Positions 83-22,624 of a stretch of 37,757 nt of DNA are shown here, one piece after another; position 1 is the first letter of the stretch; every line of letters begins with the position of its first letter. Position numbers and translations under genes: made by a program. This DNA is from a virus, in the IMG/VR virus record IMGVR_UViG_3300018421_000004, positions 1-37,757 of that record, one strand, 5' to 3'. The notes under the pieces are model-generated. The model did no database searches. It was not told the DNA's origin and was given only the letters and a program-made list of their open reading frames with translations.

Positions 83-238
83 TCCGAGGCGCGCTGGCGC
101 GACTGCGTTGGCGACCCTGAGCTGGTCGACGCCGACCTCGCCGCGAAGCTCGAGGAGGGCCTCCGTCGCGAGGAGGCCGCGGAGTGGATTCGTAAGGCCG
201 CCAAGGCCGCGCCCGAACTCGCCGACAAGCTGGGCTGA
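14..238 (+). CDS. Small hypothetical protein, 74 aa
   Basis: The GTG start follows an AGGAGG at 1-6 and, across the circular junction, overlaps the stop of the upstream gene as GTGA, so the two are translationally coupled. The N-terminal half (about residues 1-35) looks like a small beta-rich domain with many aromatic residues; the C-terminal half is a charged, alanine-rich helix. No family recognised. It lies between two small DNA-binding-like genes and the terminase region, so a role in packaging or head assembly is possible, but nothing in the sequence proves it. The stop overlaps the next ATG as TGATG. Confidence 0.8.
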   Translation: MKYIQTPNYILTEHKGGFYIKVRSEARWRDCVGDPELVDADLAAKLEEGLRREEAAEWIRKAAKAAPELADKLG

Positions 239-981
239 TGTTCGGCCGCATCGCGGGGCTCAGGTCCCGAAACCTGACTCGGCGCCCCCTCGAGTATCGG
301 GCGGCGTCGTTCTCGCAGCTGATGCGCGCCCTCGAGACCATCGAGCGGACGCGTCAGGACGGGGTCGTGCTGCGCGCGTCGACCATCCGCCTCATCGCGC
401 CCATCGTCTTCGAGGAGACGGTGACGTACCCGTCTGGGTTCGCCGGCGTGCGCATCTACTCGGACCTGTCGATCGTCCACGAGGTTGCCGCCGGCGTGAC
501 GACGGTCTTTGAGGTCGCTGGTGACTATCACGAGTTCTCCATGCTGAACGTGGAGGGCGGGACGAACTTCGTCGCCCTCACGGAAAACAACACGGTGGGA
601 ACCGAGATTCGCCGCTGCCGCGTTAACGCGACCAACATCTGGCTCGGGGGCGGCTTCTCCAACACCAGGACCCGCATCGAGGACAACAACGCCCTCTCCA
701 GCGTGGTGCTGGGGCAGCTCGGTGCGGCGTCATTCGTTCGCGGCAACGTCCTCGACAGCATTGACGCAAACGCCGAGAGCATCTCCAGCTGCCACCTGAC
801 CGACAACTACCTCGGGCAGGACATCATCATCGACGGGGGCGGGACCTGCGTCGTCACGGACAACCTCGTGCTGGGCGACCTCGACACCTCTAGCGGTAGC
901 GGCTCGAACATCGTCGACAGCAACATCGTCATCGGCACGCTGACCACGCACGGATCAGATACCGCAGGGGACAATGAGTAG
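238..981 (+). CDS. Parallel beta-helix-like protein, possible tail fibre or spike
   Basis: 247 aa. From about residue 60 onward the sequence is a run of short beta strands rich in Asn, Asp, Gly, Val and Ile, with recurring patterns such as RIEDNNAL, VRGNVLDSI, CHLTDNYL, CVVTDNLVLG and NIVDSNIVIG. This ladder of 'xxDN/GNxI' turns is typical of right-handed parallel beta-helices of the pectate-lyase type, common in phage tailspikes and depolymerases. No catalytic residues can be assigned. The first 50 residues are basic and helical and could anchor it to the virion. It overlaps both neighbours (TGATG before, 8 bp with the terminase after). A fibre gene directly before the terminase is an unusual place. 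Confidence 0.6.
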   Translation: MFGRIAGLRSRNLTRRPLEYRAASFSQLMRALETIERTRQDGVVLRASTIRLIAPIVFEETVTYPSGFAGVRIYSDLSIVHEVAAGVTTVFEVAGDYHEFSMLNVEGGTNFVALTENNTVGTEIRRCRVNATNIWLGGGFSNTRTRIEDNNALSSVVLGQLGAASFVRGNVLDSIDANAESISSCHLTDNYLGQDIIIDGGGTCVVTDNLVLGDLDTSSGSGSNIVDSNIVIGTLTTHGSDTAGDNE

Positions 982-2596
982 GCCAGGGCTCGTAATCCCT
1001 CAGCCGCGCTTCTGTGCCGAGGTCGCCTCGACGCTGAAGATTACGCACGCCGAGACGCGTCAGACGATGCTCTGGGAGCCGACAGACCTCCAGGTAAAGC
1101 ACTGGGAGAATGTCGCCACCAATCGCTTCACGTACACGCTAAAGGCGCGCCAGGTCTTCATTTCCACGGCCCAGAATCTCTACAACCTCCTCTTCACGGT
1201 TTTGAACACCGCACAGGGGAACCACATCGAGACCTGGCTGGTCTGGGATACGGACGAGAAGGTCACGGCGAAGCTGATCGAGATCTCCGACTTCGCCACC
1301 CAGCTCGACATCGAGCACCGCCTGGTGACCGGCGACGGGCGCATCGAGTTCGCCCGCGGGCGCAACAAGCCGTCGCTCATCCGCGGGTTCACCGCCGGCG
1401 GCAAGCGCATGGGCGCCGGCCTGACCGCCAACATGGTCCACCTCTCGGAGCTTCCCTTCTGGGCGGACCCGGACGCCACCTTCCTCGCCATGGGTCCCGC
1501 GGTCGGCAAGAACGGGCGCCTCCACATCGAGACCACCATGGCGGCGGGCTCGGAGCTCTCGAGGCGCCTCTGGGATGAGCCGCGTAACCAGTTCGCGCGC
1601 GGGAAGCTCTTCCTCTCCGTCGAGGACCATCCCTGGTACAAGATGGACCCCGAGGACGTCCGGACGGACGACCAGAAGAAGTCCCACCCGAAGGACAAGA
1701 ACCCGCTCCCGGCGGACATCGAGGCGAAGCTGCGGTCCGAGGGCATGACCGACCGGCCGACGATGGCGTTCTGCTGGTGGGCGTACATGAACCTCACGGG
1801 CGAGGACTGGATCGAGACGCTGCGCGAGTACCCGCCCACGCCGCGCCACTGCTTCAACCTGGCCTCGGGCCGGTGGATCCGCTGCTCCCCCGAGGTGCTC
1901 CCGCACCGCTCGGTCATGTGCGGCTCGGGCGCGCGCCAGAATGTGCTCAAGGTCTACGTCGAGCCCCACGCGGGCTCCGGCCAGTACGTCATCGGGGTTG
2001 ACACCGCGGGCAAGAAGGGCATCACCCGCCACGCGGTCGCGGTCATCGACAAGGAGACCGGAGAGCTCGCGGCCTGCTGCGTCCTCGATGACGACGACCA
2101 CTACGGGCTCGTCGAGGTCATCGCGGAGGCCCAGCGGTTCTACACGGTGGTCCCGGAGAGCGCGCGCGTCTGGCTGCGCGATGGGACCATCGAGCGCGAG
2201 GTGCCGCCGGCGGTCATCGAGGCCAACGGGCCGGGCGCCGCCACCCTGACCATCGCCCGCCACCAGGGGCTCGACGTCATCGAGTACCACACCACCCACG
2301 ACACCAACGTCGTGGGCCTGCTCGAGGTTCGCAAGAAGGCGGAGGCCGGGGTGCTCAAGGGGCCCGACGAGCTGGCGCAGGAGGCCAACCACCTCACGCG
2401 CGAGCAGAAGCACGTCGACGCCCCCGCGGTCTTCAAGGGTCTGAAGGACCTCTGCATGGCTATTTCGGCTGCTTACGTGTATATGAGGGGTGACCCCTAC
2501 GAGGCTCCGGCGGAGGAGTTTCAAGAAGAGCCGCAAAGGTTTAGACTCTGGGGAGACGAAGAAGAGACCCCAGGAGGCGACGGTGGCATTTGGTAA
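974..2596 (+). CDS. terL: Terminase large subunit
   Basis: 540 aa, normal for the family. This ATPase-nuclease pumps DNA into the procapsid through the portal and cuts the concatemer. The N-terminal ATPase has a variant Walker A around residues 57-66 (LKARQVFIST), Walker B around 153-159 (MVHLSE, Glu catalytic) and a coupling motif LHIETT near 183-188. The C-terminal RNase H-like nuclease shows GVDTA (Asp343), VIEANGPG (Glu416) and KDLCMA (Asp492), the expected acidic triad. The ATG at 974 overlaps the upstream gene by 8 bp. It is followed, as usual, by the portal after one small gene. The small subunit is not obvious; candidates are at 36929 and 37339. Confidence 0.97.
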   Translation: MSRPGLVIPQPRFCAEVASTLKITHAETRQTMLWEPTDLQVKHWENVATNRFTYTLKARQVFISTAQNLYNLLFTVLNTAQGNHIETWLVWDTDEKVTAKLIEISDFATQLDIEHRLVTGDGRIEFARGRNKPSLIRGFTAGGKRMGAGLTANMVHLSELPFWADPDATFLAMGPAVGKNGRLHIETTMAAGSELSRRLWDEPRNQFARGKLFLSVEDHPWYKMDPEDVRTDDQKKSHPKDKNPLPADIEAKLRSEGMTDRPTMAFCWWAYMNLTGEDWIETLREYPPTPRHCFNLASGRWIRCSPEVLPHRSVMCGSGARQNVLKVYVEPHAGSGQYVIGVDTAGKKGITRHAVAVIDKETGELAACCVLDDDDHYGLVEVIAEAQRFYTVVPESARVWLRDGTIEREVPPAVIEANGPGAATLTIARHQGLDVIEYHTTHDTNVVGLLEVRKKAEAGVLKGPDELAQEANHLTREQKHVDAPAVFKGLKDLCMAISAAYVYMRGDPYEAPAEEFQEEPQRFRLWGDEEETPGGDGGIW

Positions 2597-3011
2597 CACG
2601 TACACCCCGACATCCCTCCCCGGCCGGCGCTACCGTGATGAGCGCTCGCGGGAGGAAGAGGAAGAGGCCGATCGCCTGATCGCCAAGATGGAGGCGGAGG
2701 CGCGCAACGCGCCCGGCATCGGCACCGGCATCGGCTCGGCCATCGGCGGCGGGCTCGGGCTCGGGCTCGGGGCCCTCCTCGCCAGCGGCACCGGCGGCCT
2801 CGGGGCGGCTGCGATCCCGGCCTTCACCACTGGCGGCGCGGCCATCGGCGGGGGCCTCGGTGGCGCCATCGGCCAGGGCATCGCCGGCGGCAGCGAGGCC
2901 AAGGCGGACGAGCTGCGCCGCAAGCGCGAGCGCGCCCTCGCGGAGCAGGAGCAGCGGCTGAACGCCCTCGCGCCTCTCGCGATGCAGCTGGGTCAGCGGC
3001 GGTACAGCTAA
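2583..3011 (+). CDS. Glycine-rich amphipathic protein, 142 aa
   Basis: I chose the GTG at 2583 because it sits 5 nt after a perfect AGGAGG (2572-2577); reading further upstream in this frame would only overlap the end of the terminase. Residues about 15-40 are highly charged (EEEEE stretch), residues about 40-105 are a Gly/Ala/Ile hydrophobic stretch with glycine-zipper spacing (GIGSAIGGGLGLGLG), and the C-terminus is a charged helix. This layout resembles small virion proteins that insert in membranes during DNA ejection, or a membrane-perturbing toxin; neither can be proven. Its place between terminase and portal, with TAATG overlap into the portal, favours a head-associated role. Confidence 0.75.
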   Translation: MAFGNTYTPTSLPGRRYRDERSREEEEEADRLIAKMEAEARNAPGIGTGIGSAIGGGLGLGLGALLASGTGGLGAAAIPAFTTGGAAIGGGLGGAIGQGIAGGSEAKADELRRKRERALAEQEQRLNALAPLAMQLGQRRYS

Positions 3012-4873
3012 TGGACGACCGCAACGGAGGCATCGCCGGCACCGACCTCACCGAGGAAGAAGCCGGCCAGGTCATCAATGAGCTCGTGACGGACTACGAG
3101 GAGCGCGCGCGCGGCTTCCAGGCGGTAGCCCTGCGCAACGAGCGCCTCCTGCACGGCGAGAACATGAGCGGCTACGTGAGCGGCCAGTCGGGCACCGACT
3201 CGTCGCACGGGCCCATCCACGTCGACCTCGAGGGCCGGCGTCCGCGCAACTACATGCGCAAGCTTTGGCAGACCTACGCGGCGCGCCTGACCGAGGAGCT
3301 TCCGTTCGCGAAGGCCTACCCCAACGAGAACAGCGGCTATGACATCGCGGCGGCGAAGGTCGCCAACGCCTACCTGTCCTCGCAGATGGCGAAGCACGAG
3401 TGGGCGCGCATGATCTTCGAGGCCGCCCTCGTCGCCCAGGCCCACGGGAGCGTCTACTTCAAGATCACATGGGACCCCTCGGCCGGCGAGACAGCCTTCG
3501 GCGAGGAGCCCCCCGGCGACGTCCACATCGAACTCGGCGACATCTTCAACGTCGCCATCGACGACGTCGACAACCCGCACGACGCGAAGTGGTGCGTCTT
3601 CCGGCGCGAGGTCGACGAGTACGAGGCGCAGGACCTCTACGACGAGTTTGGCGTCGAGGACCGCCCGGAACTCGAGCCCATCAAGTCGCGGTACGGGAAC
3701 AAGAAGCAGGGCATCATGCTCAACGAGCTCTGGTACATCCCGAGCGCGCGCTTCCCTGACGGGCTCTTCGCCCTGCAGGTCGGCGGGAAGATCGTCCACA
3801 TGAGCGCCTACCCGTACCAGCACGGGGGCCGTCCGCAGATCCCTGTGTCGTGCTGGCGCATCCAGGGCATCCGCGGGATGCCTTTCGGCGACACCCACGT
3901 CAACGATGCGGTCCCGATTCAGATCGCCGTCAACGAGCACTCGAAGGCCATCGCGGACATGACCCGCGAGGTGGGCAACGTCCGCATCATCGCGCACAAC
4001 AAGGTGGCCGGGCAGCTGCGCCGGTCGAACCATGTCGTGAAGGTGAACGACACCAACCTGGTCGCGGGGGGCGCGCGCTACCTCGACCCGCCCAAGCCGC
4101 CGGACATCATCTTCGGCCAGCTCGATGAACTCATCACGGCGCTCCACGACCTCTTCGGGCAGAACGAGCTTCTCCTTGGGCGGCGCGTGGGCGACCAGTC
4201 GGGCAAGAGCCTGGCGTACCTGAACCGCCTCGACGGGCTCGCCATGGCGGGCTCGCTGAACCACCTGAACGCGGCGAACCAGCGCACGGCTCGTCAGATC
4301 CTGATGCTGGCCCAGCAGTACGTGGATGCGGCGCGCGTCATCGCCATCGAGGGCGCCAACGCGAGCGAGACCGAGGTGGTGATGTTCACCGGCGCGGACA
4401 TCGCCGGCGCGACGGACGTCCGCGTCGAGGCCGCCTCGGGCAACGAGCACCTCTCCAGCGGGCGCGCGGCCCAGGCCGAGGAGGATATGGCGGCAGGCAT
4501 CCTTCCGCCCGACCAGGCCCTTGAGCGGCGCGAGACGGGCCTTGCCACCACGGAGGCGGAACTCGTCCAGCGGCAGATGGTCGGCCAGCAGATTGAGATG
4601 GCCGCCCAGGGGAACGACGTCGAGGCTGACTCGACCATCGACCCGATGATCGCCCTCGACGAGATCGCCGAGCGCGTGAGCCTCGAGCTTGAGCGCGGGG
4701 CGCCGCCCCAGGTCATCGACTCCCTGATGCGCCTGGCGTCGAAGTACCAGAGTGTCATCGCGCGCGCCCAGAACCCGCAGGCCCCGCCAGAGCCCCAGGG
4801 GGGCGGCGCGCCTCAGCCCAATGCTGGAACCAAGGCCGAGCAGGACCTGCCCGGCGTCTCAACCCGGATGTAA
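3011..4873 (+). CDS. Portal protein (head-tail connector)
   Basis: 620 aa. The dodecameric portal sits at one capsid vertex, binds the terminase and later the adaptor. The sequence has the portal pattern of short-tailed phages: N-terminal helical region with the core stretch around residues 100-155 (ANAYLSSQMAKHEW, then ALVAQAHGSVYFKITWDP), a beta wing domain, a loop with GIRGMPFGDTHVNDAVPIQIAVNEH near 290-315 that precedes the long crown/stem helices, and a glutamine/proline-rich C-terminal tail. Start ATG overlaps the preceding stop as TAATG. The fit to podoviral portals is good by eye; which subfamily is not decidable here. Confidence 0.92.
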   Translation: MDDRNGGIAGTDLTEEEAGQVINELVTDYEERARGFQAVALRNERLLHGENMSGYVSGQSGTDSSHGPIHVDLEGRRPRNYMRKLWQTYAARLTEELPFAKAYPNENSGYDIAAAKVANAYLSSQMAKHEWARMIFEAALVAQAHGSVYFKITWDPSAGETAFGEEPPGDVHIELGDIFNVAIDDVDNPHDAKWCVFRREVDEYEAQDLYDEFGVEDRPELEPIKSRYGNKKQGIMLNELWYIPSARFPDGLFALQVGGKIVHMSAYPYQHGGRPQIPVSCWRIQGIRGMPFGDTHVNDAVPIQIAVNEHSKAIADMTREVGNVRIIAHNKVAGQLRRSNHVVKVNDTNLVAGGARYLDPPKPPDIIFGQLDELITALHDLFGQNELLLGRRVGDQSGKSLAYLNRLDGLAMAGSLNHLNAANQRTARQILMLAQQYVDAARVIAIEGANASETEVVMFTGADIAGATDVRVEAASGNEHLSSGRAAQAEEDMAAGILPPDQALERRETGLATTEAELVQRQMVGQQIEMAAQGNDVEADSTIDPMIALDEIAERVSLELERGAPPQVIDSLMRLASKYQSVIARAQNPQAPPEPQGGGAPQPNAGTKAEQDLPGVSTRM

Positions 4874-4882
4874 GGACCTCAC

Positions 4883-5299
4883 ATGGACAACAAGACCCTC
4901 GGAGCCCTGTTCGCCCTCCTCTTCTCGCTCACGGTCGGCGTCATCGCGACCGGCTTCGCCAACGGGGCGCACGAGCTCTACTCGCGCATCTCGGGCGACT
5001 ACGAGCCCAGCCTCGCGCGTGAGCTGGTCGAGATCAAGACGACCACGGTCTCCTGCGGCACCTCGGCGACGCAGATCGCGCCCGGGGCCGGCACGCGCTC
5101 GTTTATGGTCGTGAACACTTCCGCGACTGCTGTCTACGTTGGCGGCTCCGATGTCGACGGCTCCACGGCGGGCACGACGGGTATCGACGTGTGCGACGGC
5201 TGCACGGCGGGCAAGACCCTCTCGATGGACGCGCGCGAGGCCTACTGCGTGGTTGCCTCCGGCAGCGTTTCCGTCGAGGTCGTCTACGGTGTGAACTGA
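4883..5299 (+). CDS. Membrane-anchored beta-sandwich protein, 138 aa
   Basis: Residues about 6-26 are a single hydrophobic segment (LGALFALLFSLTVGVIATGF) followed by a short linker and then a beta-rich domain from about residue 48 (TTTVSCGTSATQIAPGAGTR, FMVVNTSATAVYVGGSDV). The domain has four cysteines, spaced so that two disulphides are possible outside the cytoplasm. Comparable small beta-sandwich domains with 'NTSxTxVYVGGSDV' strands are frequent in phage structural regions, often as fibre tips or decoration, but the N-terminal anchor is unusual for a virion protein. Its stop overlaps the next ATG as TGATG. Function unknown. Confidence 0.75.
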   Translation: MDNKTLGALFALLFSLTVGVIATGFANGAHELYSRISGDYEPSLARELVEIKTTTVSCGTSATQIAPGAGTRSFMVVNTSATAVYVGGSDVDGSTAGTTGIDVCDGCTAGKTLSMDAREAYCVVASGSVSVEVVYGVN

Positions 5300-6228
5300 T
5301 GCGCCGGCTACTGCTCCCCATCCTGCTCCTGGCGCTGTGCGCGCCGGCGACCGCGAACATCGGCAGCGGGGCTATCCGCCACGGCATCATCGGCTCCGCC
5401 GCTGACCCCAATGGCGTGCGCGGCGGCGGCAAGATTGGTGGCGGCAAGGGCCTTCGCGGGCCCCCCGCCGGCAAGGGGCCGGGCGGCGGCGGCCTTCCGC
5501 AGGAAGCCCTTCTCTCCTGGTGGTACGACTCCGAGGAGCGTGGTGCGTCCGAGGAGCCGGTCAACCAGGGCACGGGCTCCTACGCGGCGATGGTCGCCGA
5601 TGGCGGCACCCCTGCGGTCGTCACGGCCACCGTGGGCGCCACGGACAACGTCGAGGTCTGGAAGCAGGCAAGCACGACCGCGCGCTGGCTCAGCGACGAC
5701 GGCCTGGGCGGGGCCTCGCCCATCATCGTTGACACGGGGGAGTCGGCGACGTTCTTCTTCCTCTACTCGCCGCTAAGCCTGGGCGACGGCCTCGAGAACT
5801 TCGCGGCGGCCCAGCGGGCGAACAGCTCGGTCCCTGGGATGAACTTCGAGAACCTGCGCTCGGGCACGACCACCATCACGTACACTCTGCGCTACGACGC
5901 GGGCGGCGGCACGGTGCAGATCGGATTCCCCGCGGCGGACCTTGCCCTCTTCTACGTCGCCATCATCATCCACAACAACTCCCAGCCCGGCGGCTCCGGC
6001 GGCGGCAACTACGATATGTACATCCGCCCCCTCGAGTCCGGGAGTTCCTGGACGGCGAACAGCGCGGGCGCGAGCGAGACGCTGCGGACCAACCACTCCA
6101 TGTTCATGAGCGGCGACGAGTACAACGGCGGGATCCAGAGCTGGGGCTTCTACCCGGGCATCGCACTCACCTCTGATGAGCGGGATGCTGTCTACGACTA
6201 CTTCGCAAACCGATTCGGGGAGGGGTGA
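5299..6228 (+). CDS. Secreted lectin-like (LamG-like) protein, 309 aa
   Basis: Starts at the ATG that overlaps the preceding stop. Residues 1-20 form a classic signal peptide: MRRLLLP, a hydrophobic core, and a likely cleavage after ATA near residue 19. The cysteine at about 14 lacks a proper lipobox, so it is probably not a lipoprotein. A Gly-rich linker (about 40-65) leads into a beta-sandwich region of about 230 residues with features of concanavalin-like/LamG folds (FFFLYSPLSL, ALFYVAIIIHNN, IQSWGFYPGIALTSDERDAV). The C-terminal 'LTSDERDAVYDYFANRFG' is typical of such lectin modules at the ends of phage fibres. It could be a receptor-binding protein or an exported glycan-binding protein; the signal peptide favours export. 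Confidence 0.75.
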   Translation: MRRLLLPILLLALCAPATANIGSGAIRHGIIGSAADPNGVRGGGKIGGGKGLRGPPAGKGPGGGGLPQEALLSWWYDSEERGASEEPVNQGTGSYAAMVADGGTPAVVTATVGATDNVEVWKQASTTARWLSDDGLGGASPIIVDTGESATFFFLYSPLSLGDGLENFAAAQRANSSVPGMNFENLRSGTTTITYTLRYDAGGGTVQIGFPAADLALFYVAIIIHNNSQPGGSGGGNYDMYIRPLESGSSWTANSAGASETLRTNHSMFMSGDEYNGGIQSWGFYPGIALTSDERDAVYDYFANRFGEG

Positions 6229-6554
6229 TGTCTGACGCCACCGAGTCCAGGGACGCACTGATTCGCAATGTGGAGCGCGGGCTCCTGCTGCTCGCCCTCA
6301 GCGGGACCGGGCTCGGCGGCTTCGTCTGGAGCGACGCCCTGAAGGATCTCAACGCCACGGTGCAGAGCATGTCCCGCGACCTCGCGGTGCGCAACGCCAG
6401 CGTCGACCGCATCGAGGAGGACCTTGCCGACGCCAAGGCCAGGCTCCGGGCCATCGAGCACAGCCGCTTCACCAACGCGGACGCCGCTCGCGTCGAGGCG
6501 CGCATCGAGGGCGTCGAGCGTCAGATCGACGTGTTCCACCCCCGGAGGAAGTAG
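6228..6554 (+). CDS. Small membrane protein with coiled coil, 108 aa
   Basis: The ATG at 6228 overlaps the upstream stop (TGATG) and follows GGGAGGGG. One transmembrane segment lies around residues 17-36 (LLLLALSGTGLGGFVW), followed by a long charged helix (about 40-102) with heptad spacing. This topology, a short cytoplasmic N-terminus, one membrane span and a periplasmic coiled coil, is shared by inner-membrane spanins and by several phage holin-like proteins. It sits three genes before the predicted cell-wall hydrolase, so a lysis role is possible. Alternative: an assembly or membrane-docking factor of the fibre block. Confidence 0.75.
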   Translation: MSDATESRDALIRNVERGLLLLALSGTGLGGFVWSDALKDLNATVQSMSRDLAVRNASVDRIEEDLADAKARLRAIEHSRFTNADAARVEARIEGVERQIDVFHPRRK

Positions 6555-7687
6555 TGGCCGGCATTGTAGGCACTGGCAACTCGACTACGGAGCCGCTCGC
6601 GGCGGACGCCGTGTACACGGGGAAGTCCGACATCGTGAAGGACTACGCGTCAATCGCGGTGGTGGTGGAGTCGTCTGCCGACTCGGCCTTCGAGGGGCTG
6701 GAGCTGCAGTTCTCGCAGGACGGCACCAGCTGGTTCACGGCTCGCACCGCCTCGGTTTTCGCCGACGAGGCGCTGACGCTGCGCCTTGGTGTCGAGGCCT
6801 ACCGCTTCCGGATCGTGTTCACCAACGGCTCGGCCGCGGCCAACACCCTCTCGATTCAGACCATCTACCACGCCTTCGCGAGCTCCGCCCATCCGACCGG
6901 CCGCACTGCGGCTCTGGCGCGCGCGTCCGACGCGCTCCCCGTCCGGGTCGTGCAGGACTTCCGGGTAGACGTGGGGGCGTCGCGCATCAACGGCGTCAGC
7001 ACGGTGAACAAGTTCGGCTCCAACCCGTCGGTGGGGACCACGGAGGAGGACGTGTGGGCTGCGGGCGGCACCTACAACTGGCTGACGGCGGCGTCAGCGG
7101 TCCGTGTTCGCGCGGGCGGCGACGCCAATGACGACATCGCTGGCACAGGCGCAAGGACGGTGTTTATCTCGGGCCTTGACGAAAACTGGGAGGAGGCGAG
7201 CGAGACCGTTGCCCTCGCGGGCACGTCGGCGAGCGCGGCCACCACCACCACGTTCATCCGCGTATTCCGCGCCTACGTCGTAGAGGTGGGGACGTACACC
7301 GGCAACAACGCCGGGGACATACTCATCGAGACCACCGGGGGCACGCTGGTTGCTGACATTCTGGCCGGGTACGGCCAGACGCAGCTGGCGCTCTATTCGA
7401 TACCGGCCAACAAGACCGGCTACCTTGAGCGCATGTCGCTACGGGCCGAGGCTTCCAAGGCGGTGACCTTCCGGGTGTGGCAGCGAACGCTCGGCGATGT
7501 TGTGTCGGCGCCGTTTCGCGCCAAGCGCATCCTCCGTCAGTTTGGTGGCGTTTCGGGGCAGGTCGATCTCCGCCTGGACTCGGTCATCAGGCTTCAGGAG
7601 AGGACGGACATCTGGGTCTCAGCCGAGGCGGCATCTGGCACGTCGGCCGCGTCGGCCGCCTTCGACATCATTCTCGAGGACTACTAG
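6554..7687 (+). CDS. Putative virion protein, beta-rich, 377 aa
   Basis: The GTG start overlaps the previous TAG and follows GGAGG at 6544-6548. Residues about 1-115 form a beta-sandwich reminiscent of carbohydrate-binding or neck-appendage modules (AVVVESSADSAFEGLELQFSQDG). Residues about 135-377 match by eye a family common in marine and soil phage structural regions: a SVNKFGxNPSV-like opening, an 'AGGDANDDIAGTGARTVFISGLDENW' type motif around 190-215 and a C-terminal half with repeated long strands. Such proteins are usually annotated as tail or head appendage proteins. Exact role unknown; location within the fibre block supports a virion function. Confidence 0.7.
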   Translation: MAGIVGTGNSTTEPLAADAVYTGKSDIVKDYASIAVVVESSADSAFEGLELQFSQDGTSWFTARTASVFADEALTLRLGVEAYRFRIVFTNGSAAANTLSIQTIYHAFASSAHPTGRTAALARASDALPVRVVQDFRVDVGASRINGVSTVNKFGSNPSVGTTEEDVWAAGGTYNWLTAASAVRVRAGGDANDDIAGTGARTVFISGLDENWEEASETVALAGTSASAATTTTFIRVFRAYVVEVGTYTGNNAGDILIETTGGTLVADILAGYGQTQLALYSIPANKTGYLERMSLRAEASKAVTFRVWQRTLGDVVSAPFRAKRILRQFGGVSGQVDLRLDSVIRLQERTDIWVSAEAASGTSAASAAFDIILEDY

Positions 7688-7924
7688 GTGAACTGGTCTT
7701 CTGTAGTCTGGATCGTGCTCTTCTGCTTGTGCGTGGGCTTCGAGGTCTTCACCGTGGTGAACAAGGCCGAGGGCGACACGCTCAGCGAGAACGTCTGGCG
7801 CCTGCGCGCCTGGCTCAAGCGCTCGGGGCGCGCGGGCCAGGTCGGGTGGGTCGCCTTCGTCTGGGGGCTCATCGGGTTCTTTGGGTGGCTGGTCATCCAC
7901 TTCGTCTTCCCGGGGAGCGTATGA
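7688..7924 (+). CDS. Two-helix membrane protein, holin candidate, 78 aa
   Basis: GTG start immediately after the preceding TAG. Two hydrophobic segments (about residues 4-24 and 53-75) flank a short charged loop (AEGDTLSENVWRLRAWLKRSGR). This hairpin topology fits class II holins, and the gene overlaps the next ATG (ATGA), which encodes the predicted NlpC/P60-like hydrolase. The arrangement holin then endolysin is common in phages. There is a second holin candidate at 9645, so which one times lysis is open. Confidence 0.7.
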   Translation: MNWSSVVWIVLFCLCVGFEVFTVVNKAEGDTLSENVWRLRAWLKRSGRAGQVGWVAFVWGLIGFFGWLVIHFVFPGSV

Positions 7925-8508
7925 GCGTCTCGCCGGACCGCCTCGTGGAGCTCGCCCGGAAGTTCCGCCGGTACAAGTACGGGAACAACCCGACCTACCC
8001 ATGGCGTATCCCGGGCGTGAGCATCCGCGTGCAGCGCCAGGGGGACACCAGCGAGACCCTCGAGACCAACTGCTGCTGCTTCGTCGAGGCCATGCTTGTG
8101 CGCGCCTTCTGGGAGAAGGACCACCGCCTCCACCTGGACGACGAGCACCACCGGGCCTTCATGGCTATCGGCGACCCGTATGGTCCGGTCCACGCGGCCA
8201 TCGAGCTGGGCTTCGCCGACCCCATCCCGGAAGAGGACTACCCGACCACGCCGTGGCTGGTGGCCCAGGGGTGGAACAAGGACATGACCCGCGGGCACAC
8301 GTTCTTCATCGTGAAGACCGAGGCCGGGGGGCGCGTCCTCATCCTCGAGAGCAACAACGCCTACGCCGTGCGCGGCGTGGGGTGGCGAGGCCTCGGCGGC
8401 ATCGGGACCTTCACCAAGGTGCCCAAGGCCCCCAAGTGGTGGACCTGGGCCCAGATGATGAGCAAATATCCAAACCTTCGCGCGGCGGCCATTCGGTTGG
8501 ACGACTAG
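7921..8508 (+). CDS. Putative NlpC/P60- or CHAP-like cysteine hydrolase, 195 aa
   Basis: Starts at the ATG overlapping the previous stop. A helix carrying Cys51-53 (TNCCCFVEAMLV) is followed by a His in a strand (MTRGHTFFIV, His126) and a polar residue in the next strands (LESNNAY, Asn145/146 or Glu143): the order Cys, His, polar is that of papain-fold peptidoglycan amidases and endopeptidases. The role would be cell-wall cleavage at lysis or during entry. No cell-wall-binding repeat and no signal peptide are visible, so a holin would be needed for release. A non-peptidase member of the same fold cannot be ruled out. Confidence 0.6.
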   Translation: MSVSPDRLVELARKFRRYKYGNNPTYPWRIPGVSIRVQRQGDTSETLETNCCCFVEAMLVRAFWEKDHRLHLDDEHHRAFMAIGDPYGPVHAAIELGFADPIPEEDYPTTPWLVAQGWNKDMTRGHTFFIVKTEAGGRVLILESNNAYAVRGVGWRGLGGIGTFTKVPKAPKWWTWAQMMSKYPNLRAAAIRLDD

Positions 8509-8525
8509 GCCGGTTGCGGTATAGG
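8497..8525 (+). promoter_or_regulatory. Candidate sigma70-type promoter
   Basis: TTGGAC at 8497-8502, 17 bp spacer, TATAGG at 8520-8525, upstream of the decoration-protein gene at 8549, which has AAGGAG at its start. The -35 half matches the consensus poorly, so this is a moderate candidate. Confidence 0.4.
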
Positions 8526-8548
8526 ATTCACACAAGCAAGGAGTCTCC

Positions 8549-9034
8549 ATGTCAAGCGCAGATCCCACCTTTCGCCCGTCAGCCCTGGTCGCCATGAAGG
8601 CCGGGACGGACGTCGTCACCGTCAGCACCGCCGGCACGGCCGTGGAGGCGGTCGACAGCGAGTTCACCCTCGTCCACTCCTCCGACAAGTTCGGCGACTG
8701 GTTCAGCTTCGACGTGAGCACCGGGCGCCTCAAGTGCCTGAAGAAGATCAAGCGCGCCAAGGTCACGATCCAGGGCGCGGGCGTCACGAGCGCCACGGCC
8801 GACATCATGCACGTCGAGGTCGGCGTTGACGGCGCCGAGGCCGGCAACACCCGCACCCTCCTCGAGGCCACGGCCGGCATCGAGATTACCTTCTGCCTCG
8901 TCGACATCCTCACGGACATCGCGAAGGACTCGGAGATCTCGGTCATGTTCGACGCCGCCGACGACGGCGACGCGATCACCCTTTCCGACCTCAGCCTCGC
9001 GGTTGAGGTCCTCGAGCTCGCTGGGCTCGGCTAA
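8549..9034 (+). CDS. Putative decoration or appendage protein, 161 aa
   Basis: Beta-rich throughout, no membrane segment. After about 35 residues it shows the pattern AGTAVEAVDSEFTLVHSSDKF, then strands spaced as in C1q/TNF-like jelly rolls, with GVDGAEAGNTRTLLEATAGIEITF in the centre. The next gene has the same order of elements (AGTAVALGDATFNKVESPDADD), so the two look like diverged relatives. Phage proteins of this kind form trimers on capsid or fibre tips. It stands as its own small unit, with a promoter candidate upstream and a terminator after its partner, as expected for highly expressed decoration proteins. Confidence 0.65.
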   Translation: MSSADPTFRPSALVAMKAGTDVVTVSTAGTAVEAVDSEFTLVHSSDKFGDWFSFDVSTGRLKCLKKIKRAKVTIQGAGVTSATADIMHVEVGVDGAEAGNTRTLLEATAGIEITFCLVDILTDIAKDSEISVMFDAADDGDAITLSDLSLAVEVLELAGLG

Positions 9035-9065
9035 CCAAAACGCGCCCAGCGCGCAGGAGTAAAAC

Positions 9066-9557
9066 ATGGCAGGAAACCTCTCTCAGGGCCGCATCCCCTT
9101 CGCCGGCATCGAGTACTTCGATCCGTCGACCCCGGTCGCGTTCGACGTCGCCGCCGCCGGCACCGCCGTCGCCCTCGGCGACGCCACCTTCAACAAGGTG
9201 GAGTCCCCGGACGCGGACGATCGCGGCAAGTTCACGATCACCCTCGCCGACGGCTCGATCACCGTGACGGACGCGGGCGTCTACCTCGTCCTCTTCTCCA
9301 CCTCGGGGGCGGGCGATGCGGCTGACCACATCATGGACTTCCAGCTCTACATCGACGGCACCGCCGCGAGCAATGCTGGCGCGTCCTACACCGAGGACGC
9401 CACTGCGGTCGCCAAGGGCTGCGCTGGCTTCCAGACCGTCCAGACCCTCGAGGCCGGCGCCGTCCTCGACGTCCGCGTCGACTCGGACGCCAACGGCGAC
9501 GACTGGGACCTGGACTCCATCCAGTTCACGGTCATCCAGCTCGCCTCGCGCGCCTGA
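9066..9557 (+). CDS. Putative C1q/TNF-like jelly-roll decoration protein, 163 aa
   Basis: Preceded by CAGGAG at 9053-9058. Residues about 20-160 follow the C1q/TNF-like plan: AFDVAAAGTAV, then FTITLADGSITVTDAGVYLV (the hallmark strand pair of this fold), DFQLYIDGTAASNAG, FQTVQTLEAGAVLDVRVDSDANG, and a hydrophobic closing strand. Such domains trimerise and are found in phage head fibres, decoration proteins and receptor-binding tips. No signal peptide. It is followed at once by an intrinsic terminator, so with the gene at 8549 it makes a two-gene unit. Confidence 0.7.
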   Translation: MAGNLSQGRIPFAGIEYFDPSTPVAFDVAAAGTAVALGDATFNKVESPDADDRGKFTITLADGSITVTDAGVYLVLFSTSGAGDAADHIMDFQLYIDGTAASNAGASYTEDATAVAKGCAGFQTVQTLEAGAVLDVRVDSDANGDDWDLDSIQFTVIQLASRA

Positions 9558-9575
9558 TAGGCTCGCACCCAGGGG

Positions 9576-9607
9576 GCCCCTCGCTGCTGGTCAGCGGGGG
9601 GCTTTCT
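9576..9607 (+). terminator. Intrinsic terminator after the decoration genes
   Basis: Arms 9576-9586 and 9592-9602 pair over 11 bp with one G:U, 5-nt loop, followed by a short T-rich tract (TTTCT). The stem is very GC rich. Confidence 0.8.
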
Positions 9608-9615
9608 GCTATTCT
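9607..9615 (+). promoter_or_regulatory. Extended -10 promoter directly behind the terminator
   Basis: TGCTATTCT is an extended -10 motif (TGn plus TATTCT). It begins 5 bp after the terminator stem and lies 30 bp before the GTG at 9645. No -35 is possible without overlapping the terminator hairpin. Confidence 0.4.
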
Positions 9616-9644
9616 GCGCCATGATTTCAGTCCAGGAGCCCGCC

Positions 9645-10010
9645 GTGGAAATCCCCGTCGCCGTCGTCATCGCCATCAGCATCGCCGCCTTCCTGCTTCC
9701 TGCCGCGGGCATCTTCCTGATCCCCCGCCTGGCGAAGTTCCTCAAGAGCAAAGGCCTGGACGATGAGACCCTCGAGTTCATCGACCTCATCGACGACTAC
9801 TTCGACGAGGTCGAGGACCTGGCCGAGGCATCGGGCATCAAGGGGGCCGAGAAGCTCGCCAAAGCCCTCACAGGGATGGTTGAGAAGCTGGGCCGGGAGC
9901 TGACCGCCAAGGAGAAGGCCGTGGCCGTCAAGCGCATCGTGGAGAACGCCCAGCGCAAGAAGGGCATTCGGCCCGGCGGCTCTATCCGGCTTGACGACGC
10001 GGGCATGTAG
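9645..10010 (+). CDS. Single-span membrane protein, LL-H-type holin candidate, 121 aa
   Basis: I chose the GTG at 9645 because an AGGAG (9634-9638) sits 6 nt before it; the in-frame ATG at 9621 lacks a ribosome binding site and lies where transcription would begin. One hydrophobic N-terminal segment (about residues 3-27, IPVAVVIAISIAAFLL) is followed by an acidic helix and a lysine-rich amphipathic region (EKLAKALTGMVEKLGRELTAKEKAVAVKRIVENA). This layout resembles the LL-H holin superfamily, in which a single span precedes an AEK/KEKK-rich helix. It could equally be a membrane-bound assembly factor. It has its own promoter and precedes the operator at 10004. Confidence 0.65.
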   Translation: MEIPVAVVIAISIAAFLLPAAGIFLIPRLAKFLKSKGLDDETLEFIDLIDDYFDEVEDLAEASGIKGAEKLAKALTGMVEKLGRELTAKEKAVAVKRIVENAQRKKGIRPGGSIRLDDAGM

Positions 10011-10051: not shown

Positions 10052-10110
10052 GCCATCACCGAAAGACCGGATGGTGAGAGCGCCAATGTTGTGCGCCTGC
10101 CACGGAGGTG

Positions 10111-11022
10111 ATGGTGGAAGAAGAAGCCCAGACCCAGACCGCAGACTCAGGAGCCGTACCCGCTGACGCGGAGATGGCCGCCTTCCTTGAGAAGAAGCAC
10201 GCAGACGCCCCGGCGCCGGCGGAGGACGGATTCGAGGATGAGGCCGAGGGCCTCGAGGAGCCCGAAGTCGAGAATGAGCTCGATGAGGAACTCGAGGATG
10301 ACCCCGAGGCCGCAGAGGAAGAGGACGAGGTCGAGGCAGAGGAAGAGCCGGAGCAGCAGCCGCTGAGCCGGACCAAGCGTCTTGCGATGCAGCGAGACGA
10401 GGCCCGCCAAGAGCGCGAGACAGCCGTTCATAGCTTCAACGAGGCGTTGGACGTCGCTCGCAACTTCCAGCAGCAGGCCGCTGCTGCCAACGAGGAGGCG
10501 GTCCTCTACCGAGCGGAAGCCGAGGATTGGAAGGCGTATGCGTCCAACCTGGAGGAGAGGTTGCGGGAGGAGCTCGGCTACGAGCGCCACCCTGCCGAGC
10601 TGGAGAACTTCCAGATGCGGCAGCAACTCCGGCGAGCCCAGCTGCAGCAGAACCGGGTCCGACAACAGTATGAGGCGGAGCAGCAGGTCATTCAGCAGCG
10701 CCAGGTCCAGCAGAGGGTCCAGGCGTTGTCTGAGGGGTCGCGCGAGCTTGCGCGGAAGTACGGGGTAGACCACGTCGGTCTCCTGCGTGCTGCATCGTAC
10801 GAGGGCCACAACACCCTCGAGGGGATCGAGCAGGTAGCCAAGGCCCTGCGACAGTCCAAGCGAGCGAAGGCAGAGCAGAAACGAGCGCCGCGGAGCGCCC
10901 GACTGAAAGGCGGGCGTGGGCGCGTAAGAGCCCCTCAGGGCCAGGACGCTGACGAGGCACGGACCAATGATATGGCCCAGTTCCTCGAGCAGAAGATGGC
11001 TCGTGACGGGCGCCTCAAGTAA
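10111..11022 (+). CDS. Scaffolding protein
   Basis: 303 aa. Scaffold directs capsid assembly and leaves before or during packaging. The sequence has all the hallmarks: an acidic N-terminal third (about residues 35-85, mainly Glu/Asp), a long coiled coil (about 90-200, many Gln, Glu and Arg), and a strongly basic C-terminus (about 245-275) able to bind the capsid shell, as in other phage scaffolds. It lies directly before the capsid gene. GGAGGTGA at 10104-10111 is a near-perfect anti-SD match; with ideal spacing the GTG at 10114 might be the true start, one codon later. A short C-terminal tail (AQFLEQKMARDG) repeats the AAFLEKKHAD pattern near the N-terminus. Confidence 0.85.
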   Translation: MVEEEAQTQTADSGAVPADAEMAAFLEKKHADAPAPAEDGFEDEAEGLEEPEVENELDEELEDDPEAAEEEDEVEAEEEPEQQPLSRTKRLAMQRDEARQERETAVHSFNEALDVARNFQQQAAAANEEAVLYRAEAEDWKAYASNLEERLREELGYERHPAELENFQMRQQLRRAQLQQNRVRQQYEAEQQVIQQRQVQQRVQALSEGSRELARKYGVDHVGLLRAASYEGHNTLEGIEQVAKALRQSKRAKAEQKRAPRSARLKGGRGRVRAPQGQDADEARTNDMAQFLEQKMARDGRLK

Positions 11023-11033
11023 GGAGCAGCCAG

Positions 11034-12212
11034 ATGGCTTTCAGTGACCTCACCCTGTCTGATGTGCAGGATCTTCTCGCCCGCTACGGTAACGACTTCG
11101 TCACCGAGCAGACCAACCTCATGGCCCCCTTCTTCTCGAGCAAGGCGCTCAAGAAGCGGAAGAACCGTGGCAAGGTCATCATCGTTCTCGTCAAGGCTGG
11201 TGGCCTGGCGTCGACCGGCTTCCTGGCCGACGGCGGCAACCTCCCCGACAAGAAGGGTAAGACCCCCGCGCGCGGCACCCTCTTCCCGAAGGTGCTCTTC
11301 TCCCGTCTGGGCATCGGCCGTCTCGCCGTCGCGACCCTCGTGGACGTGAACGACGCGATCTCGCTGTTCAAGGAGAACACCGAGAGCATGGCCGAGGACA
11401 TCGCCCGCCAGCGTGGCCGCGCGGTCGCCAAGACCTCGCTCGGCTCGCCGGCGACGGTGCCCAGCACCACGACCATCACCGTCTCGGATCCCTCGGGCTT
11501 CCGCGTCGGCTCCGTCGTGGACCGCTACAACACCTCCGACGTCTACCAGGAGACGGTCGAGATCACCGACGTGGACATCCCCGCGTCGGGCAACGCGACC
11601 ATCACCTTCGCCGCCGCGGACACCCGCGCGACGACGGACACCTTCTACCTGAAGGGTGCCCACGACAACGCCCCGACCTCGCTCAACGATGTCGCGGCTG
11701 ACTCCAGCCTCTACGGTCTCTCGCAGAACGCGAACGACTGGGCGGCTAACCGCAACGAGTCCATCGGCACCCTGTCCATCGACGACATGCGCCTGGCTTC
11801 GGTCCTCCACCGTCGCCGCCGCGGCAAGTCCTTCGACTGCCTCGTCATGAACAGCCTCAACGAGAAGCGCTACTCGGACCTGAACCTCGCCCAGCGCCGG
11901 TTCATGCCCGGGCAGAAGCTCGACGCCCGCGGTGGTCTCAAGTCGGAGTTCGAGGGCAAGCCCATCGAGGTCGACGAGAACTTCCCCGACGACGAGATCT
12001 ACATGATCACGGAGAGCGACCTCTACTGGAACGAGACCGTCTCGCTCCACAGCGACCGCGACGGCAGCCCGGGCCAGATGCTCGGCTCCAGCGCGCCGCA
12101 CGCTCACGTCGACCAGAACGAGTTCGCCATCGACGTCCACATGTGGGAGGCGGGCAACCTCGTTTGCACCCGTCGCTCGGGCGTCTCGGTCCTCGCTGGC
12201 ATCACCGGCTGA
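11034..12212 (+). CDS. Major capsid protein (HK97-like fold)
   Basis: 392 aa. Position after the scaffold, absence of membrane segments and the sequence pattern identify it. An N-terminal helix is followed by an extended E-loop-like region (KAGGLASTGFLADGGNLPDKKG, about 50-75), a long spine helix (LVDVNDAISLFKENTESMAEDIARQRGRA, about 100-130), then an inserted beta domain (about 137-205, VSDPSGFRVGSVV to AHDN) and the A domain with FDCLVMNSLNEKRYSDL near 260-280. The insertion resembles the accessory domains other capsids use for stability. The codons are strongly C/G-ending, as for a highly expressed gene. A strong terminator follows. Confidence 0.92.
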   Translation: MAFSDLTLSDVQDLLARYGNDFVTEQTNLMAPFFSSKALKKRKNRGKVIIVLVKAGGLASTGFLADGGNLPDKKGKTPARGTLFPKVLFSRLGIGRLAVATLVDVNDAISLFKENTESMAEDIARQRGRAVAKTSLGSPATVPSTTTITVSDPSGFRVGSVVDRYNTSDVYQETVEITDVDIPASGNATITFAAADTRATTDTFYLKGAHDNAPTSLNDVAADSSLYGLSQNANDWAANRNESIGTLSIDDMRLASVLHRRRRGKSFDCLVMNSLNEKRYSDLNLAQRRFMPGQKLDARGGLKSEFEGKPIEVDENFPDDEIYMITESDLYWNETVSLHSDRDGSPGQMLGSSAPHAHVDQNEFAIDVHMWEAGNLVCTRRSGVSVLAGITG

Positions 12213-16727: not shown

Positions 16728-17951
16728 ATGGTCTACGTCCCCTCCACCACCAAGTACAGCTCGGTCTCGCCGACTCGCACGAAGACGACGGACGAGAAGT
16801 ACGACCGCGACAAGATGAAGTTCGAGCAGGACGAGATGCGCATGGCGCTCGACCAGGCGAAGACGGCCCCGCCGACGCCCGCGAGCAACACCTCGTACGC
16901 CACGAAGACGGTGTCCCCCACCACGGCCGGCACCCGCATGACGCAGGGTTCGCCGATGGTGGGCAGCGCGACCTACTCTGGCGGGACCAAGAGCGCGATG
17001 AACACGCGCACCGCGATGAGCGGCATGGATCCGGGGCGCATGGAGACGAGCCCGCTGCAGAACATCACCGGGCGACCGCCGGCCGACAATGCGTACCCGA
17101 CCGGGCGCATGGCCCCCGACCTCGCTGCGGCCGTTGGCAACTTCGATCGCGGCATGGTCGGCGAGCAGATTATCGACCCGACCACCGGGGTGAAGATCAG
17201 CAACCCCGGCTTCGACAACGTCATCAACGAGCCGCCCCCGTTTGACCCCGAGGCTGCGGCCAACGACTACATCGAGGAGATGCTCACCGGCACCGTGCCC
17301 ACCGAGGAGGCCGAGGCCCTCATCCGGGAGATGATCCAGGACAAAACCGAGATGGGCCTGCGCGACGCCCGCGCGGGCATGGGCCGCGCCGGGCTCGCCT
17401 CGAGCGGAGCCATGCAGGCCGGCGAGGCGGACATCCGCCGGGCCGCCGGCCAGCAGGCCTCCGAGGCCATCCTCGGCTACCAGGACCGCGCGCGTGCCGA
17501 GGAGCGGGCCATGCGCGAGGCGGGCCTCGACGCCTACATGCGCGGCGAGGACCTCGAGCGCGGCCGCATCGCGGACGCGATCACCATCAGCCTCATCGCC
17601 GAACAGATGGGCGTCTCCCCTGAGGAGGTCATGGCGGCCATGCAGGGCGAGGGCGGCGGCGGCTACACGACGCCCGAGGAGCGCGTGCTGGCCGCCAAGC
17701 AGGCGAACCTCGACGCGATGCGCGAAGGAACCGGCGGGCTGCAGGGCGGCCCCTCGGGATTCGGCGGCCATGTCCCGGCATCCACCGATCGCCAGTTCAC
17801 CGACGAGGGAAGCGCGCGCGCCCAGGGCTACACCCAGCCCGTCGGCAACCCGGCGCGGTTCACTGATGAAGCCGGTGTCGAGTGGGAGGAGCGCGCCTTC
17901 AAGAACCCTGACACCGGCTATGTCGCGTCCGTCTTCGTGAGGTTGTCCTGA
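16728..17951 (+). CDS. Putative internal virion protein, 407 aa
   Basis: Low-complexity N-terminal third rich in Ser, Thr, Pro and Met, then a helical region (about 165-310; EEAEALIREMIQDKTEMGLRDARAGMGRAGLASSGAMQAGEADIRRAAGQQASEAI) with alternating charged and Ala/Gly faces, and a small beta C-terminus (GVEWEERAFKNPDTGYVASVFVR). Proteins that ride inside short-tailed phages and are ejected with the DNA (T7 gp14-16 type) look like this and are encoded after the tail genes. It heads three such large genes linked by overlapping start and stop codons. No enzymatic motif was seen. Confidence 0.65.
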   Translation: MVYVPSTTKYSSVSPTRTKTTDEKYDRDKMKFEQDEMRMALDQAKTAPPTPASNTSYATKTVSPTTAGTRMTQGSPMVGSATYSGGTKSAMNTRTAMSGMDPGRMETSPLQNITGRPPADNAYPTGRMAPDLAAAVGNFDRGMVGEQIIDPTTGVKISNPGFDNVINEPPPFDPEAAANDYIEEMLTGTVPTEEAEALIREMIQDKTEMGLRDARAGMGRAGLASSGAMQAGEADIRRAAGQQASEAILGYQDRARAEERAMREAGLDAYMRGEDLERGRIADAITISLIAEQMGVSPEEVMAAMQGEGGGGYTTPEERVLAAKQANLDAMREGTGGLQGGPSGFGGHVPASTDRQFTDEGSARAQGYTQPVGNPARFTDEAGVEWEERAFKNPDTGYVASVFVRLS

Positions 17952-19489
17952 TGAGCCTTCTTCGCCAACTCCAGGAAGAGCGACGCCGCGCCAAAGAGAC
18001 GGGGCGTCGCGGCCAGCAGATGCAGCAGGGGCTCCAGCAGGGGCTCCAGCAGCTGGACGCCATGCAGCGTCAGATCCAGGACGACGCCCTCCGCCGGAAG
18101 GGCGAGACGCAGCGGCAGGACATCGCCGGCCAGCGGGCGGACGAGGCTGCTGCTGCCGCCATGCGCGAGGCGAAAAAGTTCGAGGATCTCCACCCGTACA
18201 ATGTCGAGAACAAGCGCATCATCAACCAGCGGGAGACCGACTACCTCGACCGGCAGCGCGGGATGATTGAGGCCCAGAACCTCGCCAACGCCTACAACCG
18301 GGCGAACAACCCCCTGCGCCTCCAGGGGTCGATGTTCGACCTCCGCCTGAAGAAGGTCCCGATGCTCCGGGCCGAGCTGGGCTTCGCCGGCGAGGGCGTC
18401 GCCGGCAAGGAGCTCGGGCAGAGCCTGTTCCGCGACGTCCCGCCCACGATGGCCGAGAGCTTCGAGCAGTACCTCGAGCGGGCCAACAAGGCCGGCTTCG
18501 GCGGCGACATGATCTCCAACATCCTCGGCACCGCCAACTGGAACGCCGAGGGCGCGGAGATGGGCGCCCGGATGACCGAGGACCAGGCCTACAACGCGGC
18601 GAAGAAGGCCTTCGACGCCTGGAAGGTCGACCAGATGAACACCCAGGCTGGCCTGCTCGGCCTCCAAGGGAAGCAGGCGGACATCGACAAGAAGAACCGC
18701 CCGCCCGTGACGGGCCCATGGGAGCCTCGGGGCCAGAAGACGATCGGCGGCGGGGATCGCATCCCGCGTGGCGCCTCCTTCAAGGCTGCTTCTGTCGTAG
18801 GCAAGGGCAAGGCCGTGTTCGGCGTTGGCCCTGTCGGTGTGTCGGTTGACGAGGTCGGTCGCCATCTCGGCTGGGGCGTGCCCAAGGGCCCTCGCGGCGA
18901 GGTGAAGATTTCGCCACAGCAGAAGGAGTTCGCCAAGAACGAGAAGGTCCTCATCGCGGCGGATAAGGCTCTTCGCTCTCTCGACAAGGGCGTCGACACG
19001 GGCCGGTTCAAGGCATGGCTGAACGGCGTCTTCATGTCCGTTGGTATGGATCCGCCGGAGCTGTCTGGCGCCATCGCCGATATGGCTCGCACCGCCGACC
19101 TCGCGCTCCGCGAGGCGTCCGGCGCGGCGGCCCCCTACCAGGAGCAGCTGAAGGTCGCGAAGTTCACCGGCAACCAGGCCCAGGACGAAGACACGGCTCG
19201 CAGACTCATGCTCGGGACGCGGGAGCACTACCGTAAGACGCTGGGCGCGATGCGCCGCGACGCGGCTGAGAACTTCATCCTCAGCCCCAGCAGCGTCGAC
19301 CACTATGGCCGGGACTACACCGATCCGGTTGGCCTGGTGAAGCGCTTCAAGCTCCTGCATGGCGAGGCGCGCGAAACAGCCACCGCGGCCATCAAGGAGC
19401 TCGGCGGCATCGGGAAGATTGAGTCCCTTCCCCGTGATCGCCGTCGCGATCTGTCAACCCTCCTTCTCAGGCTGTGGGCTAACCAATGA
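17951..19489 (+). CDS. Putative internal virion protein with N-terminal coiled coil, 512 aa
   Basis: Begins with a Gln/Arg-rich coiled coil (about residues 4-75) holding a direct repeat (QQGLQQGLQQ, from a 12-bp DNA repeat near 18023-18047). The rest is mostly helical; a basic Gly-rich linker lies near 250-275. The C-terminal part (about 320-510) is a helical domain with ADKALRSLDKGVDTGRFKAWLNGVFMSVGMDP, a pattern reminiscent of the C-terminal helical domains of phage ejection proteins that carry a lytic module, but no Glu or other catalytic motif could be pinned down. Coupled to both neighbours (TGATG and ATGA). The role as an ejected core protein is inferred from size, composition and order. 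Confidence 0.65.
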   Translation: MSLLRQLQEERRRAKETGRRGQQMQQGLQQGLQQLDAMQRQIQDDALRRKGETQRQDIAGQRADEAAAAAMREAKKFEDLHPYNVENKRIINQRETDYLDRQRGMIEAQNLANAYNRANNPLRLQGSMFDLRLKKVPMLRAELGFAGEGVAGKELGQSLFRDVPPTMAESFEQYLERANKAGFGGDMISNILGTANWNAEGAEMGARMTEDQAYNAAKKAFDAWKVDQMNTQAGLLGLQGKQADIDKKNRPPVTGPWEPRGQKTIGGGDRIPRGASFKAASVVGKGKAVFGVGPVGVSVDEVGRHLGWGVPKGPRGEVKISPQQKEFAKNEKVLIAADKALRSLDKGVDTGRFKAWLNGVFMSVGMDPPELSGAIADMARTADLALREASGAAAPYQEQLKVAKFTGNQAQDEDTARRLMLGTREHYRKTLGAMRRDAAENFILSPSSVDHYGRDYTDPVGLVKRFKLLHGEARETATAAIKELGGIGKIESLPRDRRRDLSTLLLRLWANQ

Positions 19490-21825: not shown

Positions 21826-21856
21826 CCGCCCAACGCAGGTGATGCTACACCTGTGT
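21822..21856 (+). promoter_or_regulatory. Candidate promoter with overlapping operator
   Basis: TTGACC at 21822-21827 (five of six -35 bases), 18-bp spacer, and TGCTACACC as an extended -10 (21843-21851). CAGGTG-ATGCTA-CACCTG (21836-21853) is a perfect 6-bp-armed inverted repeat over the -10, and ACAC-CT-GTGT (21847-21856) is the same 10-mer form found in three other control regions. Confidence 0.5.
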
Positions 21857-21892
21857 CTGGTCATGGGATTCCCCCCCCTTGAAAACGTGCTG

Positions 21893-21920
21893 GAAGGGCG
21901 TCCATTGTGGGCGCCCTTTC
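21893..21920 (+). terminator. Intrinsic terminator between the late operon and the gene at 21935
   Basis: Arms 21893-21902 and 21908-21917 pair over 10 bp with one G:U, loop ATTGT, then TCTTT. It ends the structural operon, but because the promoter candidate at 21822 lies before it, it may also work as an attenuator for the genes that follow; its T tract runs directly into their AGGAGG. Confidence 0.82.
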
Positions 21921-21934
21921 TTTAGGAGGCACAC

Positions 21935-22552: not shown

Positions 22553-22624
22553 GTGACCAAGAAGCCATCCTCGCCGCCATCCAGCAGCTCGCCGCCAGAC
22601 TCGAGCGAGTCGAGGCAGGTTCCG
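22549..22624 (+). other. Coding-like segment that changes frame, split or shifted gene
   Basis: The GTG at 22549 overlaps the previous stop and has GAGGAG before it, and the first 20 or so codons (MSDQEAILAAIQQLAARLERVEA) end mostly in G or C, like real genes here. After about 22615 that signal stops in this frame and appears one base over, in the frame of the gene called at 22625. Either a +1 shift joins them, or a base was lost in sequencing, or two starts overlap. If read straight on without a shift, the first frame has no stop until 23238 and would fuse with the gene at 22864 into 229 aa with a Gly/Ala/Arg-rich middle. Confidence 0.45.

Follow-up and report, generated by a model that had tools for sequence, protein, structure and literature searches.

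Nine genes on the plus strand fill the slot between the portal gene and the probable scaffold gene (positions 4883 to 10010, Table 1) of the virus contig IMGVR_UViG_3300018421_000004, which was analyzed at its full length (positions 1 to 37,757; 37,757 bases; referred to as the window). The genes and their products are named here by their start positions. An earlier note on this DNA had described five consecutive genes ending at position 7924; the slot extends past this position, and the genes 7921, 8549, 9066 and 9621 likewise precede the scaffold. All five genes of the earlier note are coding, as judged by third-position GC, Shine-Dalgarno sequences or stop/start coupling, and tight overlaps. 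Their third-position GC ranges between 0.86 and 0.94, which is similar to that of the neighboring genes. A Shine-Dalgarno-like sequence was found at all of them except 5299, which starts via a stop/start overlap (TGATG), and the start codon of 6228 was determined to be the ATG at 6228, not at 6225. About 5 of the 8 membrane or exported genes detected in the genome are located within the nine-gene slot, an enrichment with a p-value of ~0.005 in a rough hypergeometric test (10-gene slot, 50 genes), which was performed post hoc with approximate gene counts.

Table 1. Genes of the portal-scaffold slot, its borders and a second cluster of membrane or exported ORFs.
Gene	Position	Strand	Length (aa)	Characteristics
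Portal	3011..4873	+		Left slot border; PF16510 P22_portal, E 5.6e-11; phrog_156, 7.6e-25
4883	4883..5299	+	138	N-terminal hydrophobic span, then beta-like domain with four Cys
5299	5299..6228	+	309	Type I signal peptide, Gly-rich linker, beta-rich domain
6228	6228..6554	+	108	Weak N-terminal span, then coiled-coil-like region; spanin/BhlA-like in layout only
6554	6554..7687	+	377	Virion protein; phrog_8198 over residues ~138-376, extra N-terminal beta-like domain
7688	7688..7924	+	78	Two-span protein; phiC31 gp29 family, phrog_3555, 2.8e-9; putative holin-type
7921	7921..8508	+	195	phrog_26504, 7e-36; candidate endolysin
8549	8549..9034	+	161	Beta-like; weakly similar to 9066 product, hhalign E 0.0012
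9066	9066..9557	+	163	Beta-like; faint BclA_C / collagen-like minor tail match
9621	9621..10010	+	129	One strong N-terminal span; LLH-holin-like
Probable scaffold	10108..11022	+		Right slot border; by position and acidic/coiled composition only; directly upstream of major capsid gene
Major capsid	11034 (start)			phrog_14242, 2.8e-17
Small ORF	33575-33745	+		Strong hydrophobic span; beside lipoprotein
Lipoprotein	33742-34569	-		GTG start, LLLAAC lipobox, Cys-rich region, VWA-like DGSGS motif
Small ORF	34801-35139	-		Strong hydrophobic span; beside lipoprotein

An exact direct repeat of 82 bases is present at both contig ends (1-82 and 37676-37757), by which the genome is probably complete, and the lysis genes should therefore be present. 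The portal protein is P22-like, judged by its profile matches. The phage is of the podovirus type. Since TerL and the capsid protein found no match among 50,697 phage records and the relatives of the portal in these records are distant only (20-26% identity), the phage is, in terms of sequence similarity, without a close known relative in the searched collections. Peptide patterns of the portal, TerL, the capsid and the 7921 product did not recover any genuine relative among viral contigs, the single TerL pattern match (L099) being a chance match, and the members of the portal alignment were too divergent to serve as a search query. The best matches of the SSB were scattered over Rhodothermia/Bacteroidetes, 'Deltaproteobacteria' and Gammaproteobacteria, and the host was not assigned from them. 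Outside the slot, an ORF upstream of TerL (238-981, plus strand) reads as a right-handed beta-helix of the tailspike type and has no family match, and a glycine-zipper-rich protein, which may interact with membranes, is encoded between TerL and the portal (2490-3011, plus strand).

In the 4883 product, a single strong span covers residues 8-26 (mean KD 2.14), in line with the anchored beta domain that had been proposed for it, whereas the beta nature of the domain follows from the appearance of the sequence only. No family match was obtained in the profile searches (Pfam and PHROGs among them), and tblastn gave matches only at E >= 3. A relationship between this beta domain and the small beta proteins beside phrog_8198 in other phages found no support (hhalign probability ~0.1%). 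The 5299 product starts with an n-h-c signal peptide (MRRLLLPILLLALCAPATA, with the cleavage site before N), comprising a positive n-region, a hydrophobic core and an A-x-A site near residue 19. This N-terminus ranks first as signal-peptide-like among 1,474 start codons on both strands, using a home-made score and a cleavage site set by eye, and the clean signal peptide was thus borne out. The description of the same protein as lectin-like was not: no match was found in Pfam, PHROGs, NCBIfam, PDB sequences or INPHARED, and the searches of the first four gave no LamG or ConA-like lectin. An AlphaFold model made without an alignment reached a pLDDT of 38 and is unusable for fold comparison.

For the 6228 product, a marginal 17-residue span (KD 1.60, apparent dG +1.5) was found in front of the coiled-coil-like part, for which weak coiled-coil matches only were obtained in Pfam and PHROGs. 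Of the single-span coiled-coil protein suggested before, the coiled-coil-like part is present but the span is marginal. As a two-component Rz/Rz1 spanin, 6228 found no spanin PHROG at E 0.1, whereas the spanin genes of two other viral loci (L073 and L089, see below) do match, and a lipobox scan of the slot detected no lipoprotein as an o-spanin partner. The exported and membrane features ascribed to the five genes are thus largely real for 4883, 5299 and the two-span protein 7688, but weak for 6228.

The 6554 product is firmly of the virion type, as its label of virion-like had implied, with a match to phrog_8198 of E 8.3e-44 (profile positions 41-261 of 262). In an alignment with other members, the identity was 30-35% with 12 invariant columns. 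The family was found in 52 phage records. In cyanophages, its genes mostly adjoin terminase and some are annotated as 'virion protein' or 'tail fiber protein', and in MW202879 the gene is located between TerL and the portal. The cyanophage protein S-SCSM1 gp031 and WJZ48171 of phage DSL-LC05 are homologous to the C-terminal ~240 residues of 6554 with 30-35% identity, and their genes likewise lie among terminase, portal and scaffold genes. In contrast to these, 6554 has an extra N-terminal domain of ~135 aa and is surrounded by span-bearing genes.

A scan with the phrog_8198 alignment yielded 80 viral loci. A protein with an N-terminal span was found within six genes of phrog_8198 at 15 of 87 loci, a count based on crude gene calls and including many short loci. 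At L073 (10001-12420) the phrog_8198 gene is upstream of lysozyme and Rz-like spanin genes, and at L089 (9884-12000) upstream of an Rz-like spanin pair, in both cases directly or at a distance of a few genes. At L098 (89-2975) its downstream neighbors encode a lipoprotein, a protein with faint similarity to spanins and an endolysin of the M15 type. Lysis genes thus recur next to this virion gene in unrelated viral contigs, though at a minority of the loci. L073 and L089 resemble the slot in that membrane and lysis genes come after a virion gene, but their lysis genes are Rz-like spanins of phrog_739 and phrog_812, plus a phage lysozyme in L073, families that are absent from the slot. At a further locus, L024, a signal-peptide protein with curlin-like repeats (11162-11860, plus strand) is encoded two genes past phrog_8198 and is followed by a 689-aa membrane protein.

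The assignment of 7688 as a two-span protein was confirmed, the spans having KD values of 2.60 and 2.12. In tblastn, it matches phiC31 and 90 Streptomyces phage records, and a motif NK-(x2)-GDTLSE-x-VW is conserved between 7688 and the phiC31 gp29 family. ORF1 of X91149, the phiC31 cos-region record, corresponds to gp29 and is annotated as 'putative; lysis gene from Holin family', and the holin-type role of 7688 is putative, resting on this old annotation of the phiC31 relative. The two spans, the GDTLSE-x-VW motif, 41% identity and a location near packaging or head genes are shared by 7688 and this relative. The phiC31 gp29 relatives, however, are Streptomyces phage proteins beside tRNA, HNH or terminase genes, whereas 7688 is located past the portal gene and overlaps a putative peptidase gene. 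In the inspected Streptomyces phages, the phrog_3555 relatives are found near genes for HNH, thioredoxin and terminase proteins rather than near endolysin genes.

The overlapping gene, 7921, starts within an ATGA shared with 7688. Reading the product by eye, the residue order Cys51-53, His126 and Glu143/Asn145 was noted. Such an order of Cys, His and Glu/Asn suits a CHAP/NlpC peptidase. At full length, the protein matched none of the curated CHAP and NlpC-P60 profiles; a subfragment reached 13.1 bits (E 0.14) against Pfam CHAP, below the cut-off of 26, with a weak alignment across most of the profile. The AlphaFold model, again made without an alignment, had a pLDDT of 32. Despite the match to phrog_26504, tblastn against the 50,697 phage records gave no relative at a cut-off as loose as E 10, and members of this family appear to be absent from the searched phage collection. 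In genomes, no pattern match was upheld by tblastn, and phrog_26504 was absent from ~750 sampled genomes (partly overlapping samples, limited to the phyla that were reached, and a scan that had no positive control). The 7921 product is listed as a candidate CHAP/NlpC-like endolysin.

The products of 8549 and 9066 are probably virion surface proteins, and the two genes (8549-9557 in the window) are perhaps a duplication. The 9066 product matched BclA_C with 3e-4 at 21 bits (cut-off 38) and phrog_30509, a collagen-like minor tail protein, with 0.023. The 9621 product resembles the LLH holins (PF09682, Phage_holin_6_1) in its one N-terminal span and an alignable C-terminal part, but its score of 22.0 bits (E 2.2e-4) is under the curated gathering cut-off of 24.9. 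A match to the holin phrog_608 was found with 0.043.

The expectation that exported proteins do not occur between portal and scaffold was partly supported. In the gene-order comparison, no exported or membrane proteins were seen at this position in the small number of portal relatives that could be compared, but the slot is known to take extra genes. In Jasmine, Shocker and DS1 it holds zero or one gene (the DS1 genes being identified by position). In DSL-LC05 it is occupied by phrog_8198 together with a tailspike and further beta proteins, and is in this respect similar to the slot described here; it differs in having no annotated exported or span-bearing gene, and the holin and peptidase of DSL-LC05 close its late operon. 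Among the portal relatives, MW202795 carries a muramidase directly upstream of TerL, and in Shocker genes for a peptidase and a membrane protein are located in the vicinity. Microbacterium and Arthrobacter phages provide published examples of extra-gene blocks in head operons and of displaced lysis cassettes (PMC7302621, PMC5513430). The slot is thus permissive and not restricted to packaging genes, and it is the placement of mostly ordinary phage parts in it that is unusual.

No membrane span was found among the called genes at 21265-23238, downstream of the ejection-type proteins, where DSL-LC05 has its lysis genes. Among the remaining late proteins that were scanned against Pfam and PHROGs, none belonged to a peptidoglycan-hydrolase family, which points to the slot for lysis. 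This exclusion argument is limited, because a second cluster of three membrane or exported ORFs on divergent strands is located at 33.5-35.1 kb, without a recognized hydrolase. Its lipoprotein has the second-best signal in the genome and matches Pfam VWA only with E 0.22.

Taken together, the slot is best read as one late-transcribed block that combines virion surface proteins (6554, probably 8549 and 9066) with the lysis proteins of the phage, a reading to which we assign a probability of about one half. Of the possibilities raised in the earlier note, the cassette for lysis and adhesion agrees best with the data, considering the ATGA overlap of 7688 and 7921, the LLH-holin-like 9621 and the virion fiber or decoration protein amid these genes. 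The suggestion that it was inserted here found no support as far as a recent event is concerned: in codon usage, each gene of the slot deviates from the core genes by no more than ~1.1 SD, and since GC and codon usage of the slot equal those of the core late genes, nothing indicates that the block was acquired recently. We infer the holin, endolysin and surface roles, their order of action and the late transcription of the slot genes as follows. Late transcription of the head operon would yield the virion surface proteins, the holin-type proteins and the peptidase from one message. Late in infection, the inner membrane would be opened by the 7688 and/or 9621 products that had built up in it, and the 7921 peptidase, which has no signal, would then cross the opened membrane and cut the peptidoglycan. 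The 6228 product may be an accessory membrane protein, while 5299 would be exported by Sec and 4883 anchored in the membrane, and the two would function when infection ends, either in the periplasm or on the outer surface.

Several observations count against the combined fiber and lysis block. No functional match reaches a curated holin or endolysin cut-off, the relatives of 7688 are not beside endolysins, the slot lacks a spanin lipoprotein partner, and three more membrane or exported ORFs are present at 33.5-35.1 kb. In addition, the phrog_26504 protein 7921 could be a virion peptidase instead.

It is unlikely, though worth weighing, that the whole block belongs to the virion, with the beta proteins as fibers or decoration and with 4883, 5299, 6228 and 9621 being packaged, ejected and inserted into the host envelope by their hydrophobic parts. 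The content of the same slot in DSL-LC05 and the annotations of the cyanophage phrog_8198 proteins are consistent with this. However, the signal peptide of 5299 is a textbook cleavable one and not a plain hydrophobic helix, ejection-type genes are already present at their usual site past the tail genes (16728-21261, by position), and 7688 is without virion precedent.

With the same low likelihood, 4883, 5299 and 6228 may form an exported moron beside ordinary fiber and lysis genes, which would coat the infected or lysing cell for receptor masking, superinfection exclusion or the release of progeny from debris. Such a unit is supported by two exported or anchored products that are encoded next to each other with translational linkage and lack virion relatives, and the phrog_8198 neighbor in L024 is likewise a signal-peptide protein. 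Without any relatives, however, no conserved unit can be demonstrated, nothing ties 5299 to a receptor, and the position in the late operon is late for exclusion. Still less probable is that these three genes constitute a new late device, encoded within the head operon, in which an anchored and a Sec-secreted beta protein on the infected cell mask receptors or assist in breaking the outer envelope without classical spanins. Least likely of all, lysis would be performed by the two small span-bearing ORFs and the lipoprotein of the second cluster, with the slot genes doing something else; such ORFs are indeed present there, but their strands are divergent, they are not part of the late operon and no recognized hydrolase gene adjoins them, and the nearby 35255 gene is DNA-repair-exonuclease-like.

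Overall, the region represents a real but moderate oddity, in which parts of familiar kinds occupy an unusual slot, together with one exported protein without relatives in the collections searched. The combined fiber and lysis reading means that a mixed module of fiber and probable lysis genes can be accommodated in the portal-scaffold interval, although P22-like phages usually keep this interval tight. The recurrence of phrog_8198 virion genes beside lysis genes in unrelated phages aids the annotation of both. Furthermore, 5299 provides a defined test case of a Sec-exported late phage protein without relatives in these collections.
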